NCBI GenBank assembly: GCA_000952975.1
Contig: LM997412.1
Location: forward strand, 620,001 to 684,000
Source: Peptoniphilus sp. ING2-D1G
GTDB lineage: Bacteria; Bacillota; Clostridia; Tissierellales; Peptoniphilaceae
Direction of reading: 5' to 3'
DNA: 64,000 nucleotides
Below are positions 2,741-60,610 of the stretch, one piece after another (position 1 is the stretch's first letter; each line of letters begins with the position of its first letter). The notes under the pieces are model-generated. The model had not been told where the DNA came from. It saw only the letters and a program-made list of their open reading frames with translations, and searched no databases. The position numbers were made by a program, and so were the translations under genes.

Positions 2741-3397
2741 ATGAAATTTTTTATTGATACGGCAAATATCGAAGAGATTAAGGAAGTAAATTCATGGGGA
2801 GTGTTGGATGGAGTAACAACCAATCCTTCGCTTATAGCTAAAGAAAATAGAGTTTTTGAAGATGTTATTGCAGAAATAACCGAAATAGTCGATGGACCCA
2901 TATCATCAGAAGTTACTGCAGATTTATGTGATGAAATGGTAGTTCAAGCTAAACAACTTTCAATTATAAATAAAAATGTAATAATAAAAATTCCCATGAC
3001 TATAGAAGGACTCAAGGCTGTAAAGATTTTATCAAAAGAGGGCATAAAGACCAATGTAACGCTTGTTTTCTCGGTAAATCAAGCTATCCTTGCCGCAAAG
3101 GCGGGAGCCGATTATGTAAGTCCTTTTATCGGAAGACTTGATGATATAGGTTTTGATGGGATTGAATTGATAAAGGAACTTGCGCAAATATTTAAAAACT
3201 ATGCCATAAGGACTGAAATAATCGCAGCAAGTATCAGACATGCAGAACATGTTCATAAGTGTGCCCTATATGGAGCTGATATAGCAACTGTTCCTTATAA
3301 TGTATTTAAGCAGATGGCAAAACATCCTCTTACAGACTTAGGTATTGAAAGATTTAAGAAAGATTTTGAAGGAGTTAAATCCAAGGGAGGATTTTAA
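2741..3397 (+). CDS. Transaldolase / fructose-6-phosphate aldolase family
   Basis: 218-residue small-subfamily transaldolase (TalC/MipB type), a cytosolic Schiff-base aldolase of the sugar phosphate pool. It opens with [13 protein letters not shown] and [10 protein letters not shown]; the Schiff-base lysine is K83 in [26 protein letters not shown] and the AASIRH stretch are conserved. Sequence alone does not separate true transaldolase from fructose-6-phosphate aldolase, so no symbol is given. It is followed immediately by the class II fructose bisphosphatase, fitting a sugar-phosphate role. Confidence 0.92.
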
Positions 3398-3398
3398 G

Positions 3399-4373
3399 AT
3401 GAAAATGAACAGAAACTTAGCATTAAATTTAGCCAGGGTAACGGAGGCTGCAGCATTATCAGCAGGAAAATACCAAGGAAAAGGCGATAAAAATGGGGCG
3501 GATAAGGCTGCAGTTGACGCAATGAGAAGAATGTTTGATGTAATTGAGATTGACGGTGTAGTAGTGATAGGAGAAGGCGAAATAGACGAAGCTCCAATGT
3601 TGTATATTGGAGAACACATAGGTAAAGATTCCGAGGATTATGACAAGGTCGATATTTCTGTAGATCCTCTTGACGGCACAACATCAATTGCGGAAGGAAA
3701 GACAAATGCCATAGCTGTACTTGCAGTATCTCCAAGGGGAACTATGCTTAATGCTCCCGACGTCTATATGGAAAAAATAGCTTGCGGGCCGAGAGCAAAG
3801 GGTCAAATAAATCTTGATGACTCGGTAACTGACAATGTCACCAGAGTTGCCAAAGCGTTGGGAAAGGATATTTCAGATATCACGGTGGCTGTATTAGACA
3901 GACCCAGACACGAAAAAATAGTAGAAGAAGTTAGAAAAATCGGCGGAAGAATAAAAAAAGTGTCCGATGGAGATATATTAACTGCACTTGAAACCTGTTT
4001 TGAAGAATCCGGAGTAGATTTGATGATAGGTATAGGAGGTGCTCCTGAAGGAGTAATAGCTGCCGCTGCTCTTAAGTGTTTAGATGGAGATTTTCAAGGA
4101 AGACTTTATCCCACAGATGATGCACAAATGCAAAGATGTAAAGCTCTTAATTCCGATGTTAAAAAAATTTATTATATAGATGATTTGGTAAAAGGAAATG
4201 AAGTAATATTTTCAGCTACAGGAGTGACATCAGGTGAAATTTTAGAAGGTGTAAAATATTACAAAAATAACATTGCGACAACTGAGTCTTTGGTATTAAG
4301 ACTTCCAAGCGGAACAATAAGAAGAATAAAGTCTACGCATAAATTATCTCAAAAGCCGGACTATGCAAAATAA
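3399..4373 (+). CDS. glpX: Class II fructose-1,6-bisphosphatase
   Basis: 324-residue GlpX-type phosphatase that turns fructose 1,6-bisphosphate into fructose 6-phosphate. Metal and substrate motifs seen: GEGEIDEAPML, SVDPLDGT, and IGIGGAPEGV. The frame is open upstream into the transaldolase gene, but GGGAGG at 3385-3390 sits 8 bases before the ATG at 3399, giving the usual N-terminus MKMNRNLALNLARVTEAAA, so that start was chosen. Placement after a transaldolase suggests gluconeogenic or pentose-phosphate carbon flow. Length is normal. Confidence 0.95.
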   Translation: MKMNRNLALNLARVTEAAALSAGKYQGKGDKNGADKAAVDAMRRMFDVIEIDGVVVIGEGEIDEAPMLYIGEHIGKDSEDYDKVDISVDPLDGTTSIAEGKTNAIAVLAVSPRGTMLNAPDVYMEKIACGPRAKGQINLDDSVTDNVTRVAKALGKDISDITVAVLDRPRHEKIVEEVRKIGGRIKKVSDGDILTALETCFEESGVDLMIGIGGAPEGVIAAAALKCLDGDFQGRLYPTDDAQMQRCKALNSDVKKIYYIDDLVKGNEVIFSATGVTSGEILEGVKYYKNNIATTESLVLRLPSGTIRRIKSTHKLSQKPDYAK

Positions 4374-54151: not shown

Positions 54152-55297
54152 TTATATATTGAATACTTTTAAGTTATCAAGTTTTGAAACTGCTTGTTTT
54201 TTTATTTCATCTTGAACGTGAGTATAGACATTCATTGTAGTTGAAAAGTCTTCGTGCCCTGCTAAGGCTTGTGCTATTTTTGGTGATATTTCTGATTCTG
54301 CTAATCTTGTAAGATATGTGTGCCTTAATGCGTGAAATGTTTTATATTCTATATTATTTTCTTCACATAGTCTTTTTAATCTTCTTGTTGGTCTTTTTAT
54401 TTCTATGTGTTTTCCTTTATCACAAAATAGAATGTTATCCGGATCATATTCAAAGCCAGTTTTAAGGTTGAGTTCTTTAATTTTGGTTATTCTTTTTTTT
54501 ATTATTTCACAGGCTTGTTTTGGAAGAGGAATGAATCTGTGTGATGCTTGTGTCTTTAAATCTCTAACTATATAGATGGCTATTTGCTTGTTATTTTCGT
54601 TTTTGTAGCTTATGTTATATTGTTTATCAATGTTTAGTCCATCGTCTCTAAAATCGTCAATATTTAAGCCTAAACATTCCCCTAGTCTTAGACCTGCTAC
54701 TAGGGAAGTGTATATTACTAGATCTACCGGATCTTCATAGTTTAGGTTGTCTAGTATGATTTTTTGTTCCTCTATTGTATAGGCCTGACGTTTTTTAAAA
54801 TTATTTTTTATTGTTATTGTTGAAAATGGGTTAAATTTTACCATTCGATTTTTTGTTGCATATAGGAAAAATGAATTTATGTGTGATAGGGTTCTTTTTA
54901 CTGTTGCTAAGCTATTAGTTTCTTTTAATTGTTTAATGTAGATTTGAGCATCTAAATTGCTTATATCTGCTGTTTTCATTTTTGCTATTAAATAGTCCTT
55001 GATTCTTTTGCTGTAGGTTGTTATATAAGGCTTCAGACTTACTCCAAGTATGTTGTCTTGTTTGACGTTTACAATCCATGAGTAAAACATGCTTCCAAAG
55101 CTATCATTGTCTTGTATAATTAGATCTTTATATTTTTCTATCCAATTATCTCTCTTTTCTAGTGCTAGATATCTTTTTAAGCTACCAAAGCTTTTTCTTA
55201 TACTTTTAGTGTCTGTTTTAATTGTTGCATCACATCTAAAATAATCTTTACCATTTCTTTTAGTTTTATAGACGCTACCTAGTTTTATTTCTTGCAT
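54152..55297 (-). CDS. int: Phage-type tyrosine integrase
   Basis: 381 residues. N-terminal AP2-like arm-binding region and SAM-like core-binding domain lead to the catalytic domain with R204 (AGLRLGE), K248, H322 and R325 (HALRHTY), H348 (AGHED) and nucleophile Y358. It ends 160 bases from tRNA-Trp and points at it. AGGAGG precedes the ATG. Expected to insert and excise the element. Confidence 0.95.
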   Translation of the reverse strand: MQEIKLGSVYKTKRNGKDYFRCDATIKTDTKSIRKSFGSLKRYLALEKRDNWIEKYKDLIIQDNDSFGSMFYSWIVNVKQDNILGVSLKPYITTYSKRIKDYLIAKMKTADISNLDAQIYIKQLKETNSLATVKRTLSHINSFFLYATKNRMVKFNPFSTITIKNNFKKRQAYTIEEQKIILDNLNYEDPVDLVIYTSLVAGLRLGECLGLNIDDFRDDGLNIDKQYNISYKNENNKQIAIYIVRDLKTQASHRFIPLPKQACEIIKKRITKIKELNLKTGFEYDPDNILFCDKGKHIEIKRPTRRLKRLCEENNIEYKTFHALRHTYLTRLAESEISPKIAQALAGHEDFSTTMNVYTHVQDEIKKQAVSKLDNLKVFNI

Positions 55298-55468: not shown

Positions 55469-55855
55469 TTAGATGATTATTTCTTCACCTAATAATGCTG
55501 AAGCTAAAATTCTATCTAATTTGCGTATATCGGCTTTAGCGTTGAGCTTTATTTTTATGTGTCCTGCTTTTGTCCAGAGTTCTACTTCGGAATTAAAGTC
55601 TAAAAGTTTTCCTGCATTTTCTGTAGAATACATAACTATTGATGTGTAAGGTAAAGAGTATATCTCTACTTTTTTACCTGTTAATCCTTGAGAGTCTCTA
55701 ACTATAAGTCTTTTATTTGTAAATATAGCTGAATCTCTGATTGTTTTGTAAGCACAAATGGCTATTTCGTTTGGAAGTAGTAAGTCTGAAACATCTTCTG
55801 GCATAGGACATTCATTATAAAAAGTCCATAATATTGGTGCTAAATCTTCTGGCAT
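55469..55855 (-). CDS. Bacterial PH-domain protein
   Basis: 128 residues. A central domain with AIFTNKRLIVRDSQGLTGKKVEIYSL and a strand-rich VELWTKAGHIKIKLN matches the bPH_1 pleckstrin-like family common in Gram-positive prophages and ICEs. AGGAGG precedes the ATG. Lies between the integrase and Fic genes on the lysogeny strand. Function unknown. Confidence 0.75.
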   Translation of the reverse strand: MPEDLAPILWTFYNECPMPEDVSDLLLPNEIAICAYKTIRDSAIFTNKRLIVRDSQGLTGKKVEIYSLPYTSIVMYSTENAGKLLDFNSEVELWTKAGHIKIKLNAKADIRKLDRILASALLGEEIII

Positions 55856-55939: not shown

Positions 55940-56506
55940 TTATTCATCTAACTTATAAATGTCATAATTATATAGATTTTCATAGTAATAAGAATTTTGT
56001 ATTCCACGCATATAGACTTGTCTGTTGTTTATATCATCTGTTAATGCTGATTTTAAAAGATGTTTTATTTCGAGTGAATTTACGGGGGATCTTTCCATTG
56101 CTTGTAGGTATTCAAATTTATCAACTTTTGACCAGTCAATGCACAGTTTAAGGTTTTTCTTTAAAATCAGGTCAAGCCATATACGCATTGAGCGACCGTT
56201 ACCCTCTCTAAAAGGATGTGCGACATTCATTTCTACGTATTTTTCTATTATTTCATCAAATGTATTTTCGGGCATTTTTTCTATAATTATTAAATTTTCT
56301 TTTAAAAATAGAATTGGTGCGAATCTAAAATTACCTTTTGATAGATTTACATTTCTTATTTCACCTGCAAATTCAAATATGTCTTGAAATAGGTATTGAT
56401 GTATTTGACAAAGTCCTTTAAATGTCCCTACTTCGAATAAGGCTATTATATTTTTATCCCAGAGTTCAATAGCTCTTTTTTTGCTTAGTAGTTCTTCATT
56501 TTTCAT
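55940..56506 (-). CDS. Fic-domain protein with C-terminal inhibitory motif (class III type)
   Basis: 188 residues. The active-site loop HPFREGNGRSMR begins at H97, complete for AMP transfer to a target Ser/Thr/Tyr. Near the C-terminus S172-Y-Y-Y-E176-N177 fits the (S/T)xxxE(G/N) helix that blocks ATP in single-chain class III Fic enzymes, so no separate antitoxin gene is needed, and none is adjacent. GGAGAAAC lies upstream, right after the repressor stop. Expected to be expressed in the lysogen. Target unknown. Confidence 0.85.
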   Translation of the reverse strand: MKNEELLSKKRAIELWDKNIIALFEVGTFKGLCQIHQYLFQDIFEFAGEIRNVNLSKGNFRFAPILFLKENLIIIEKMPENTFDEIIEKYVEMNVAHPFREGNGRSMRIWLDLILKKNLKLCIDWSKVDKFEYLQAMERSPVNSLEIKHLLKSALTDDINNRQVYMRGIQNSYYYENLYNYDIYKLDE

Positions 56507-56521
56507 TTATGGGTTTCTCCT

Positions 56522-57163
56522 TTATTTATTTCTACTTGAATAAACTCCGACCATTTCTCCAAGGATTATGATATTTTTATGCTCCTCTTTTGTGAATATG
56601 ATTGGCTCATAATTCGCATTACAAGGTTGTAAAATTAGGAAATCTTTTGATTTAATTACACGTTTTAAAGTAGCCTCATCATCTATTAAAACTGCGGCTA
56701 TTGTTCCGTTGTCTACATCATTTTGTTTTCTAAAAAATACGAAGTCGCTTTCAAAAATATTAGCTTCTATCATGCTATCACCTTTTGCTTTAAGTACAAA
56801 GTCAGCTTCAGGGATGTTTTTGTCGAGCATAAAATATCCGTCATAATTTTGTTCGGCGAAAATAGGATTTCCACATGCGATTGTACCAAGTATAGGGATT
56901 TTTTTCATTTTTATAGGGGTAATAATGCCAGGTATATTTTCGAGGATTGGTTCGCTGTTTTCATCTTCCCAACCCATGAGGTAGGCGGGGGTAGTATTTA
57001 AAAATTTTGCCAATAATTCTATTTTGTCAGAAGGAATATTAGATATAACTCCATTTTCATAACGTTGTATTGTGGCACGAGAAACTCCAACGTAATTGCC
57101 TACTTCTTCTAAGGTAAAGTCGTTTTCTATTCTTTTCTTTCTTATCCTTCTTCCGATATCCAT
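56522..57163 (-). CDS. Phage repressor, HTH plus S24 LexA-like protease
   Basis: 213 residues. An XRE helix-turn-helix (LEEVGNYVGVSRATIQRYENG) precedes an S24 domain with S130 (KGDSM) and K167 (ATLKRV), and a possible self-cleavage site at C97-G98 in GTIACGNP. It represses the early genes until RecA-stimulated cleavage. AGGAGG-type site before the ATG. Divergent from the cro-like gene, with shared operators between them. Confidence 0.93.
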   Translation of the reverse strand: MDIGRRIRKKRIENDFTLEEVGNYVGVSRATIQRYENGVISNIPSDKIELLAKFLNTTPAYLMGWEDENSEPILENIPGIITPIKMKKIPILGTIACGNPIFAEQNYDGYFMLDKNIPEADFVLKAKGDSMIEANIFESDFVFFRKQNDVDNGTIAAVLIDDEATLKRVIKSKDFLILQPCNANYEPIIFTKEEHKNIIILGEMVGVYSSRNK

Positions 57164-57192
57164 TTTTTCCTCCTAATTAACTTGTTAATAAT

Positions 57193-57221
57193 ATTCTATA
57201 CTTAAATTACATATAAAGCAA
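57193..57221 (-). promoter_or_regulatory. Repressor promoter (PRM-like)
   Basis: On the minus strand TTGCTT (complement of 57216-57221), 17-base spacer, TAGAAT (complement of 57193-57198). Operator-like site 57206-57222 covers the -35, allowing self-control. Confidence 0.65.
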
Positions 57222-57222
57222 C
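57206..57222. promoter_or_regulatory. Operator-like site 1 (ATTAC-N7-GCAAC)
   Basis: Same 5-7-5 geometry as the two perfect sites at 57285 and 57517, with one changed base in each arm. It overlaps the repressor -35. Confidence 0.5.
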
Positions 57223-57252
57223 AAAAAAGTAAAATATTTTTACTAAAATTAC

Positions 57253-57281
57253 TTGACAAGATACAAACGATATTGTAATAT
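57253..57281 (+). promoter_or_regulatory. Early rightward promoter (PR-like)
   Basis: Consensus TTGACA at 57253-57258, exactly 17 bases, TAATAT at 57276-57281. It drives the cro-like gene. Just before it lies a 17-base palindrome AGTAAAA-N3-TTTTACT at 57228-57244. Confidence 0.85.
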
Positions 57282-57284
57282 TGA

Positions 57285-57301
57285 GTTACACAATAAGTAA
57301 C
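57285..57301. promoter_or_regulatory. Operator-like site 2 (GTTAC-N7-GTAAC)
   Basis: Perfect inverted arms GTTAC/GTAAC, positioned across the expected transcription start of the early promoter, where a bound protein would block initiation. Confidence 0.7.
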
Positions 57302-57318
57302 AAAGGGGTGATTATATT

Positions 57319-57525
57319 TTGATAAAAGTTGATGAACTAAAAGGAAGAATAGTCGCAAATGGATTTACCCAGGCAGAAATAGCGGAAAAACTTGGAATTA
57401 CACCAAAAACACTATCTTTAAAATTTAAAAAAGGGGTTCTAGATTCTGATGAAATTTATAAATTAATAGATATTTTAAAGATAGAAGATCCTGTAGATAT
57501 TTTTTTTACTCAAAGTGTTACATAA
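57319..57525 (+). CDS. Cro-like small HTH protein
   Basis: 68 residues with a helix-turn-helix at about 18-38 (FTQAEIAEKLGITPKTLSLK). TTG start with GGGGTGA eight bases before. First gene of the early transcript; probable antagonist of the repressor. Operator-like site 3 overlaps its stop codon. Confidence 0.85.
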   Translation: MIKVDELKGRIVANGFTQAEIAEKLGITPKTLSLKFKKGVLDSDEIYKLIDILKIEDPVDIFFTQSVT

Positions 57526-57533
57526 AACGTAAC
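57517..57533. promoter_or_regulatory. Operator-like site 3 (GTTAC-N7-GTAAC)
   Basis: Perfect copy of the site 2 arms and spacing, overlapping the cro-like stop codon (57523-57525). Confidence 0.65.
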
Positions 57534-57571
57534 ATAAACATTAACAATGTATAGGAGGCGGGGGATGAAAA

Positions 57572-57781
57572 GTGTTAAATATTTTAAAGTTAAAGGGGAA
57601 AATTGCAGAAAATAATTTGACAATGTCGTCTTTGGCAAAAAAATTAGATATCAATAGAGATACGCTTTATAGAAGATTAAGGAATAATGGCGAAAAGTTG
57701 TTTTTAAAAGATATTAATGCGATTATTAAAATTTTGAATTTGAGTTATGAGGATGTCATTGAAATATTTTTAAAAGTTTGA
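57572..57781 (+). CDS. Second small HTH protein
   Basis: 69 residues, similar in layout to the Cro-like protein: LTMSSLAKKLDINRDTLYRRLRN is a helix-turn-helix. GTG start with GGAGGCGGGGG eight bases before; an out-of-frame ATG at 57565 gives only 16 codons. Possibly a regulator of the DUF739 type. Role unknown. Confidence 0.75.
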   Translation: MLNILKLKGKIAENNLTMSSLAKKLDINRDTLYRRLRNNGEKLFLKDINAIIKILNLSYEDVIEIFLKV

Positions 57782-57812
57782 GCATGACAAATGCCATGCT
57801 CAGTTGGTAAAG

Positions 57813-57950
57813 CTATTTAGTTTTTCTTGATGCACGTTGGGATAGTGCGCTTCCTGCAGCTGTTTTGCTTGCTTTGCTTGTTCGACCGTCACGTAGAACT
57901 TTAGAGGCTGCACTTGCTGCTTTTTTGGAAGTTTGCTTGCTATTCTTCAT
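57813..57950 (-). CDS. 45-residue basic small protein on the lysogeny strand
   Basis: Read leftward from ATG 57950 with AGGAGGTG ahead. Rich in Lys, Ala and Ser, with VLRDGRTSKASKTAAGSAL and QRASRKTK at the end. Similar short proteins with an SAAGSALSQ core occur in Gram-positive phages and chromosomes; function unknown. It lies in the 360-base gap between the second HTH gene and the 66-residue gene, opposite to early transcription. No promoter was located. Confidence 0.7.
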   Translation of the reverse strand: MKNSKQTSKKAASAASKVLRDGRTSKASKTAAGSALSQRASRKTK

Positions 57951-60079: not shown

Positions 60080-60610
60080 ATGGATAACTTAGCACTGATA
60101 GAAGATTTGACAAATGAAGAAGTAACAGAAAGAGAGAGTTTTAAAGTAACGGACATGGCAAGTGCTGATTGGTGTTTTAGGAAGATATCGGCTATTAAGA
60201 AGGACATAGCAGAAAAGGAGCGCTATGCAGATTTAGAGATAGAAAAGTATGTGGCTTTTAAGGATAAGGAAAAGAAAGCTGCGGATGACAGTATAGCTTT
60301 TTTTGAAAGTCTTTTAATTGCATATTATGAAGAGCAAAAAGCAATTGATGATAAGTTTAAGCTTAAAACTGCACAGGGCAGCTTATCTGCACGAAAAACA
60401 AAGTCATATAAGTATGATGATGACAAAGTAATAGCATTTTTAAAAGAAAATGGTATTGATGGATATATAAAAACAGAAGAGAAGCTGAAAAAACAAGAGC
60501 TTAAGACAGACTTCAAAGCAATTAATGGAAGTCTTGTTACTGAAAATGGCGAGATAATAGATGGTGTAGTAATTGAAGATGTAACAAGTTACACGATAAA
60601 GGGGGTTTAA
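60080..60610 (+). CDS. Gam-like host-nuclease inhibitor
   Basis: 176 residues. The DWCFRKISAIKKDIAEKERYA stretch, followed by a helical hairpin and ARKTKSYKYDDDKVIAFLKE, matches the Mu-Gam-like family in Firmicutes phages, which binds double-stranded ends and shields them from host nucleases. AGGAGG precedes the ATG. The next gene starts one base after its stop. Confidence 0.8.
   Translation: MDNLALIEDLTNEEVTERESFKVTDMASADWCFRKISAIKKDIAEKERYADLEIEKYVAFKDKEKKAADDSIAFFESLLIAYYEEQKAIDDKFKLKTAQGSLSARKTKSYKYDDDKVIAFLKENGIDGYIKTEEKLKKQELKTDFKAINGSLVTENGEIIDGVVIEDVTSYTIKGV

Follow-up and report, generated by a model that had tools for sequence, protein, structure and literature searches.

Around a divergent repressor gene in the prophage of Peptoniphilus sp. 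ING2-D1G, palindromes of 5-7-5 geometry lie at the two promoters and also on the stop codon of a small HTH gene. Which type of lysogeny switch these sites belong to, and which protein reads them, is the question addressed here. The stretch of DNA analysed, hereafter the window, is 64,000 nucleotides long. Its gene annotation shows the lysogeny end of a prophage, with the following gene order:

54152-55297, - strand: integrase
55469-55855, - strand: PH-domain protein
55940-56506, - strand: Fic-domain gene, directly downstream of the repressor gene
56522-57163, - strand: cI-like S24 repressor of 213 aa (Pfam Peptidase_S24, 5.4e-26; HTH_3, 3.6e-13)
57319-57525, + strand: MOR/Cro-like HTH protein of 68 aa with a TTG start, divergent from cI
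57572-57781, + strand: second small HTH gene, next after the 68-aa gene

The three putative operators and the early promoter were located as follows:

57206-57222: weak upstream operator ATTACATATAAAGCAAC, ATTAC-N7-GCAAC, with two mismatches, OR-like
57253-57281, + strand: early (lytic) promoter, a match of the form TTGACA-17-TAATAT
57285-57301: main operator GTTACACAATAAGTAAC, over the early transcription start, OL-like
57517-57533: distal operator GTTACATAAAACGTAAC, containing the TAA stop (57523-57525) of the 68-aa gene, OD-like

Since the TTGACA-17-TAATAT match spans 57253-57281, the early transcription start was inferred to be near 57288, inside the main operator. GTTAC-N7-GTAAC is exact at 57285-57301 and 57517-57533, all four sequences named in the preliminary description lie where it placed them, and its assignment of the first site to the early start agrees with the promoter match. 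The second exact site does contain the stop codon, as had been claimed; the gene ending there had been called cro-like, and its product is MOR-like instead.

The two exact sites are 232 bp apart. In the whole genome (1,601,846 bp), exact GTTAC-N7-GTAAC was found three times, twice at this locus, and a control pattern read backwards was found twice. The third copy (L003) is at genome positions 1211862-1211878. When at most one change was allowed, there were 36 sites versus 92 for the control, and with at most two changes 535 versus 1114; the control counts were above the motif counts at both levels, and therefore the genome as a whole shows no enrichment of the motif. Sites with at most two changes numbered 28 in the 64-kb window; 100 shuffled versions gave 16.0 on average, and every one stayed below 28. 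Five such sites fell in 57206-57545, against 0.11 predicted per 340 bp by the genome rate, and two of the five (57505 and 57529) overlap 57517-57533 and share its half-sites. If the three exact sites were placed uniformly, two of them would share one named 600-bp region with a probability of ~4e-7, and some pair would lie as close as 232 bp with a probability of ~9e-4. Clustering is confined to the exact pair, which is the significant part.

It is very improbable that the matches arose by chance or that the copy on the stop codon is an RNA hairpin or terminator. Chance would be favoured by the high A+T content of the region and by one further exact palindrome elsewhere in the genome, but two of the three genome copies lie within 232 bp, the sites recur in relatives well above control regions, and a hairpin need not match the sequence of the promoter site.

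We compared the arrangement with that of TP901-1. In TP901-1 DNA, AGTTCA-type sites were found at 3318-3336, at the lytic transcript start, and at 3566-3584, and the mor TAA (3573-3575) lies inside the latter. The two sites were equated with OL and OD by the published description and the AGTTCAYR consensus, as given in the accessible text of PMC8516035. A palindrome scan (described below for the relatives) gave both OL and OD the full score, at a distance of 248 bp. TP901-1 and the window have in common a divergent cI and small DUF739/MOR gene, a strong operator on the lytic start, another at the end of mor with the stop codon in it, a weak operator between the divergent promoters (CI binding and the site strengths are predicted for the window), and, beyond cI, int and a PH-domain gene, the TP901-1 order being int, PH-domain protein, metalloprotease, cI, mor. 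The half-sites are of AGTTCAYR type in TP901-1 and GTTAC in the window; the places agree, whereas the specificity group differs. OL and the weak site are 63 bp apart in TP901-1, compared with 79 bp between the main operator and the weak site in the window, and a metalloprotease gene stands in TP901-1 where the window has the Fic gene. TP901-1 CI is without a peptidase domain, as far as the accessible parts of PMC8516035, PMC7250872, and PMC11149083 describe it, whereas the window CI has the S24 domain.

In this last respect the window is like phi13, whose CI has a peptidase/autocleavage C-terminal domain according to the available sections of PMC8516035. In the same sections, tagged phi13 CI binds OL and OD strongly and OR, which has a deviant half-site, more weakly; untagged CI binds OR with equal affinity, and for this reason the weakness of phi13 OR is not settled. 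By its published description, phi13 differs from the window in operator sequence, and the identity between the MOR proteins is low. These comparisons indicate that the window very probably carries a further member of the TP901-1/phi13 type of lysogeny switch, in which the sites would be operators of the CI/LexA-type repressor.

The preliminary description had proposed a lambda-like switch. Lambda and the window have a divergent repressor and small HTH gene, a CI-type HTH, and a LexA-like self-cleaving domain in common. In lambda, three operators are clustered between the promoters and a second set is present at OL. Unlike lambda, the window has an operator on the stop codon of the small gene, and the small protein is MOR-like, not Cro. 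Hence the proposed set of a repressor and its operators held, with sites that recur in relatives and in TP901-1, and the type was revised to that of TP901-1/phi13 with sites matching OR, OL, and OD. The 5-7-5 palindrome geometry is also that of the GATAC boxes of Lactobacillus phage phi-g1e, a term not found in our literature search.

The two regulator proteins were characterized by sequence searches. CI has an N-terminal HTH with the recognition helix SRATIQRYENG and a C-terminal LexA/S24 domain. Residues 87-208 aligned to LexA with GDSM, TLKR, and ACG in register with GMSM, TVKR, and AAG; thus the Ser and Lys of self-cleaving S24 proteins are present, and the cleavage site is Cys-Gly in place of Ala-Gly. 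For the 68-aa protein as a single sequence, the best PDB match was MOR of TP901-1 (E 0.0082), and a 13-member profile of its relatives matched MOR at 4.5e-9. One row stood above MOR in the profile search: 8vd6, a repeat protein whose separate repeats had E values of 12-15. The protein scored 26.2 bits against Pfam DUF739, the annotation of TP901-1 mor, which is 0.8 bits short of the cut-off of 27, and the single-sequence evidence for DUF739 is therefore borderline; five of the six members of set A1, the window protein included, matched DUF739 at E <=0.001. Identity with lambda Cro was considered and rejected, as lambda repressor chains reached only E 0.2-0.4 with the family profile. Among solved structures, the 68-aa protein resembles MOR, not Cro, in sequence.

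The recurrence of the start/stop pair was investigated in related loci. The score was that of the best pair of like palindromes, one in the 100 bp before the mor-like start and the other in -45 to +60 around the stop, with a maximum of 24. From 80 loci, L059 (the window's own DNA) and L108 and L133 (too little upstream) were omitted; the 77 remaining loci and the window formed 69 clusters, and 68 were left after L093, whose regions were not full length, was dropped. Paired palindromes scoring at least 22 of 24 were found in 63 of the 68 loci (among the 63, L071 owes its score to a T/A-run artefact), compared with 3/68 inside the gene and 1/68 farther downstream for the same score. When the start of one locus was paired with the stop of another, 87 of 133 swaps reached 22; because many loci have one common motif, the 68-locus set does not demonstrate locus-specific pairing. 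In a wider CI-anchored set, the pair was found in 20/26 loci (TP901-1 included) versus 0/26 and 0/25 in controls, with varying operator sequences such as CTTACG, GTCGCA, TGTTGA, and TATCTT. In a DUF739 sample drawn from whole genomes of the same class, it was found in 17/29 versus 1/29 and 2/29. Some matches in these wider sets are of low complexity and some lie off the stop codon. Of the 42 CI-anchored loci, 11 had been omitted because they were duplicates or had been counted elsewhere, L009 because it is nearly identical to L008, and L006, L010, L011, L019, and L022 for having no recognised mor-like frame; L038 is the same contig as L134 and hence present in two sets. The DUF739 genome sample is without L158 (the window's own genome), and the far control of L139, which could not be scored, was entered as 0.

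Finer features were scored in 65 loci (the 68 without L071, L087, and L138). The stop codon lies inside the 17-bp site in 52 of them. Matches at 9 or more of the 12 half-site positions were found in the start region of 62/65 loci and over the early -35 hexamer in 56/65 relatives, versus 0/65 and 1/65 in controls, the counts being partly circular because the consensus was derived from two of the sites. The latter place corresponds to a candidate degenerate fourth site in the window, which is weak there (7 of 12 half-site positions):

57248-57264: ATTAC-TTGACAA-GATAC, over the early -35 hexamer, three mismatches

In phiCD27 (L200), the palindrome scan gave 22 and the controls 21 and 21, and an operator pair was not picked out. 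By eye, a near-repeat, ATCCCAAA..GCAACGA, was seen upstream of and near the end of a small repressor-like gene at 1501-1722 of phiCD27, and may represent a non-palindromic start/stop pair.

The start-to-stop spacing was 226-252 bp with a mean of 236 (62 loci), which would suit DNA looping between CI oligomers at the two sites. For the hexameric CI of TP901-1, simultaneous binding of three sites has been proposed, according to the accessible text of PMC4941734, and the distances have a weak 10.5-bp periodicity (R 0.28; p 0.008 versus a smoothed null, with relatedness ignored). However, the distance is mostly fixed by gene length, many loci are near half-integer turns, the range of spacings does not clearly indicate one helical phase, and a roadblock or simple cooperative binding fits equally. 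Looping is thus a tentative reading, which we regard as somewhat doubtful. In the promoter scan, no promoter-like match was listed over 57517-57533, and for this reason the stop-codon site most likely acts together with the start site by cooperative binding, or as a roadblock.

To which protein the sites belong was examined by covariation in 63 loci (the 65 without L062 and L080, in which no CI was found). Operator position 3 is A in 49, C in 9, and T in 5 loci. Among all columns of CI and the Cro-like protein, its best covariate was column 32 of the CI recognition helix, corresponding to Q33 of the window: Y/F occurred with A in 48/48 cases, Q/S/A with C/T in 13/13, and H was split 1:1. The corrected mutual information was 0.665 bits for this column, 0.422 for the next-best CI column, its neighbour, and 0.242 for the best mor-like column. 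On the best CI tree, built without the helix, there were six class changes; well-supported branches gave two independent pairs, both concordant (sign test, p 0.5), and the tree-corrected support for the covariation is thin. We infer that CI is the probable reader of the 17-bp sites. An improbable alternative is that the MOR/Cro-like protein is the main binder and represses itself from the start and end of its own gene. This protein has an HTH and autoregulation would suit a site on its own gene, but its recognition helix is alike across operator classes, with the low best-column value given above, and TP901-1 MOR alone shows no efficient DNA binding in the accessible text of PMC7250872 and PMC11149083.

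The weak upstream site was considered together with two neighbouring features:

57193-57221, - strand: presumed cI promoter, assigned by eye (TTGCTT at 57216-57221, 17-bp spacer, TAGAAT at 57193-57198)
57228-57244: palindrome AGTAAAATATTTTTACT, AGTAAAA-N3-TTTTACT

The presumed -35 (TTGCTT) is a poor consensus match, and the promoter scan gave an alternative reading, TTTATA-18-TATTAT at 57217-57188. Under either reading 57206-57222 covers the cI -35, in agreement with the placement originally proposed for this site. It is 79 bp upstream of the main operator. Among the same-family relatives L171-L176, of which L175 was unreadable, ATTAC-N7-GCAAC was found in L172, L173, and L174 at the same distance upstream, 79 bp, with a spacer sequence different from that of the window (L172 and L173 are near-identical to each other), and L171 has GTTAC-N7-ACAAC at 69 bp. 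In L176, no upstream site was found within two changes. The CI helices of L172-L174 are SRATMQRYE or NKATIQRYE, and GTTAC-type sites are kept at start and stop. A match with two changes would not suffice by itself, and the third site is credible because it is conserved, being present in four of the five readable relatives. The palindrome AGTAAAATATTTTTACT had been suggested as the site of a second protein. By eye, it has no counterpart at the same place in L171-L174; it is therefore probably incidental, and the suggestion was abandoned.

The class-neutral form ATnAC-N7-GCnAC was exact in 10/65 loci (the window included) versus 0/65 in the downstream control, with 0.1 expected. In these ten loci the left half tracks the CI class (T in 7/7 non-A loci, A in 2/3 A loci), and the right half is GCAAC in 9/10 regardless of class. 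This is consistent with a composite site, in which ATTAC would be read by CI and, within a CI:MOR complex, GCAAC(A) by the MOR-like protein; alternatively, it would be fixed simply because it is the cI -35. In the available text of PMC7250872, TP901-1 has a composite OM-OR operator for CI:MOR, arranged as OM1-OM2-OR-OM3 with OM motifs such as TCAACAnAA beside OR. When the window was compared with this motif, GCAACAAAA at 57218-57226 was found to overlap the right half of the weak site. CAACAAA was present upstream in 8/69 loci versus 1/69 downstream, and CAAnAAAA in 39 versus 4 of the 69 loci, but the cI -35 also overlaps this place. Against the composite reading, its form is exact in only 10 of the 65 loci, and, as its right half shares bases with the presumed -35 TTG, constraint on the promoter could by itself account for that half. 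The composite reading is the bolder one, and we consider it a possibility that falls short of an even chance.

On the preferred reading of a TP901-1/phi13-type switch, CI would bind the strong sites 57285-57301 and 57517-57533 in the lysogen, and with CI at both sites the mor/cro-like gene and everything downstream would not be transcribed. The weak site over the cI -35 would keep cI expression in check at high CI levels or, alternatively, when CI is complexed with the MOR-like protein, which would counter CI as an anti-repressor. After DNA damage, RecA-stimulated self-cleavage of CI would lift the repression.

This type of switch is already known; the novel points are a GTTAC-specific member and how widely the stop-codon operator occurs. 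The layout known experimentally from TP901-1 and phi13 recurs here in another bacterial family, where the operator sequence is unrelated, as well as in many more loci, and therefore operators should be predictable by position alone in uncharacterised prophages. In addition, the CI residue at window Q33 (Y/F versus Q/S/A) and operator base 3 offer a simple specificity code. The chances appear evenly balanced that a wider rule applies to MOR/DUF739-type switches of Firmicutes phages: the operator on the mor stop codon would be general, its place kept while its sequence turns over with one CI recognition-helix residue, the operator would often supply the stop codon, and the site at the cI promoter would be a half-CI composite whose other half serves the promoter or MOR. 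In the literature covered by our search, no statement of the stop-codon operator as a general rule was recognised; Johansen 2003 and Pedersen 2008 may discuss the matter. The reason for placing an operator on the stop codon of an anti-repressor gene is a question raised by these results.

Several minor observations were made in the neighbourhood. The protein encoded at 57572-57781 is a diverged relative of the MOR-like protein (family model, E 3.2e-7; BLASTP, E 4e-5), and the anti-repressor roles may be divided between the two proteins of this tandem pair. A perfect 8-bp inverted repeat, TGAGCATG-ACAAATGC-CATGCTCA at 57779-57802, begins on the stop codon of the second HTH gene, and a convergent small Ala-rich frame (- strand) lies beyond it. 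The repeat is possibly a two-way terminator; no terminator-like site was listed in 57100-57900, and the same scan was the ground for rejecting a terminator where the 68-aa gene stops. A viral contig on record (L046) is identical to the window DNA over 4,359 bp. In the early region, 60080-60610 (+ strand) encodes a Mu Gam-like end-protection protein.
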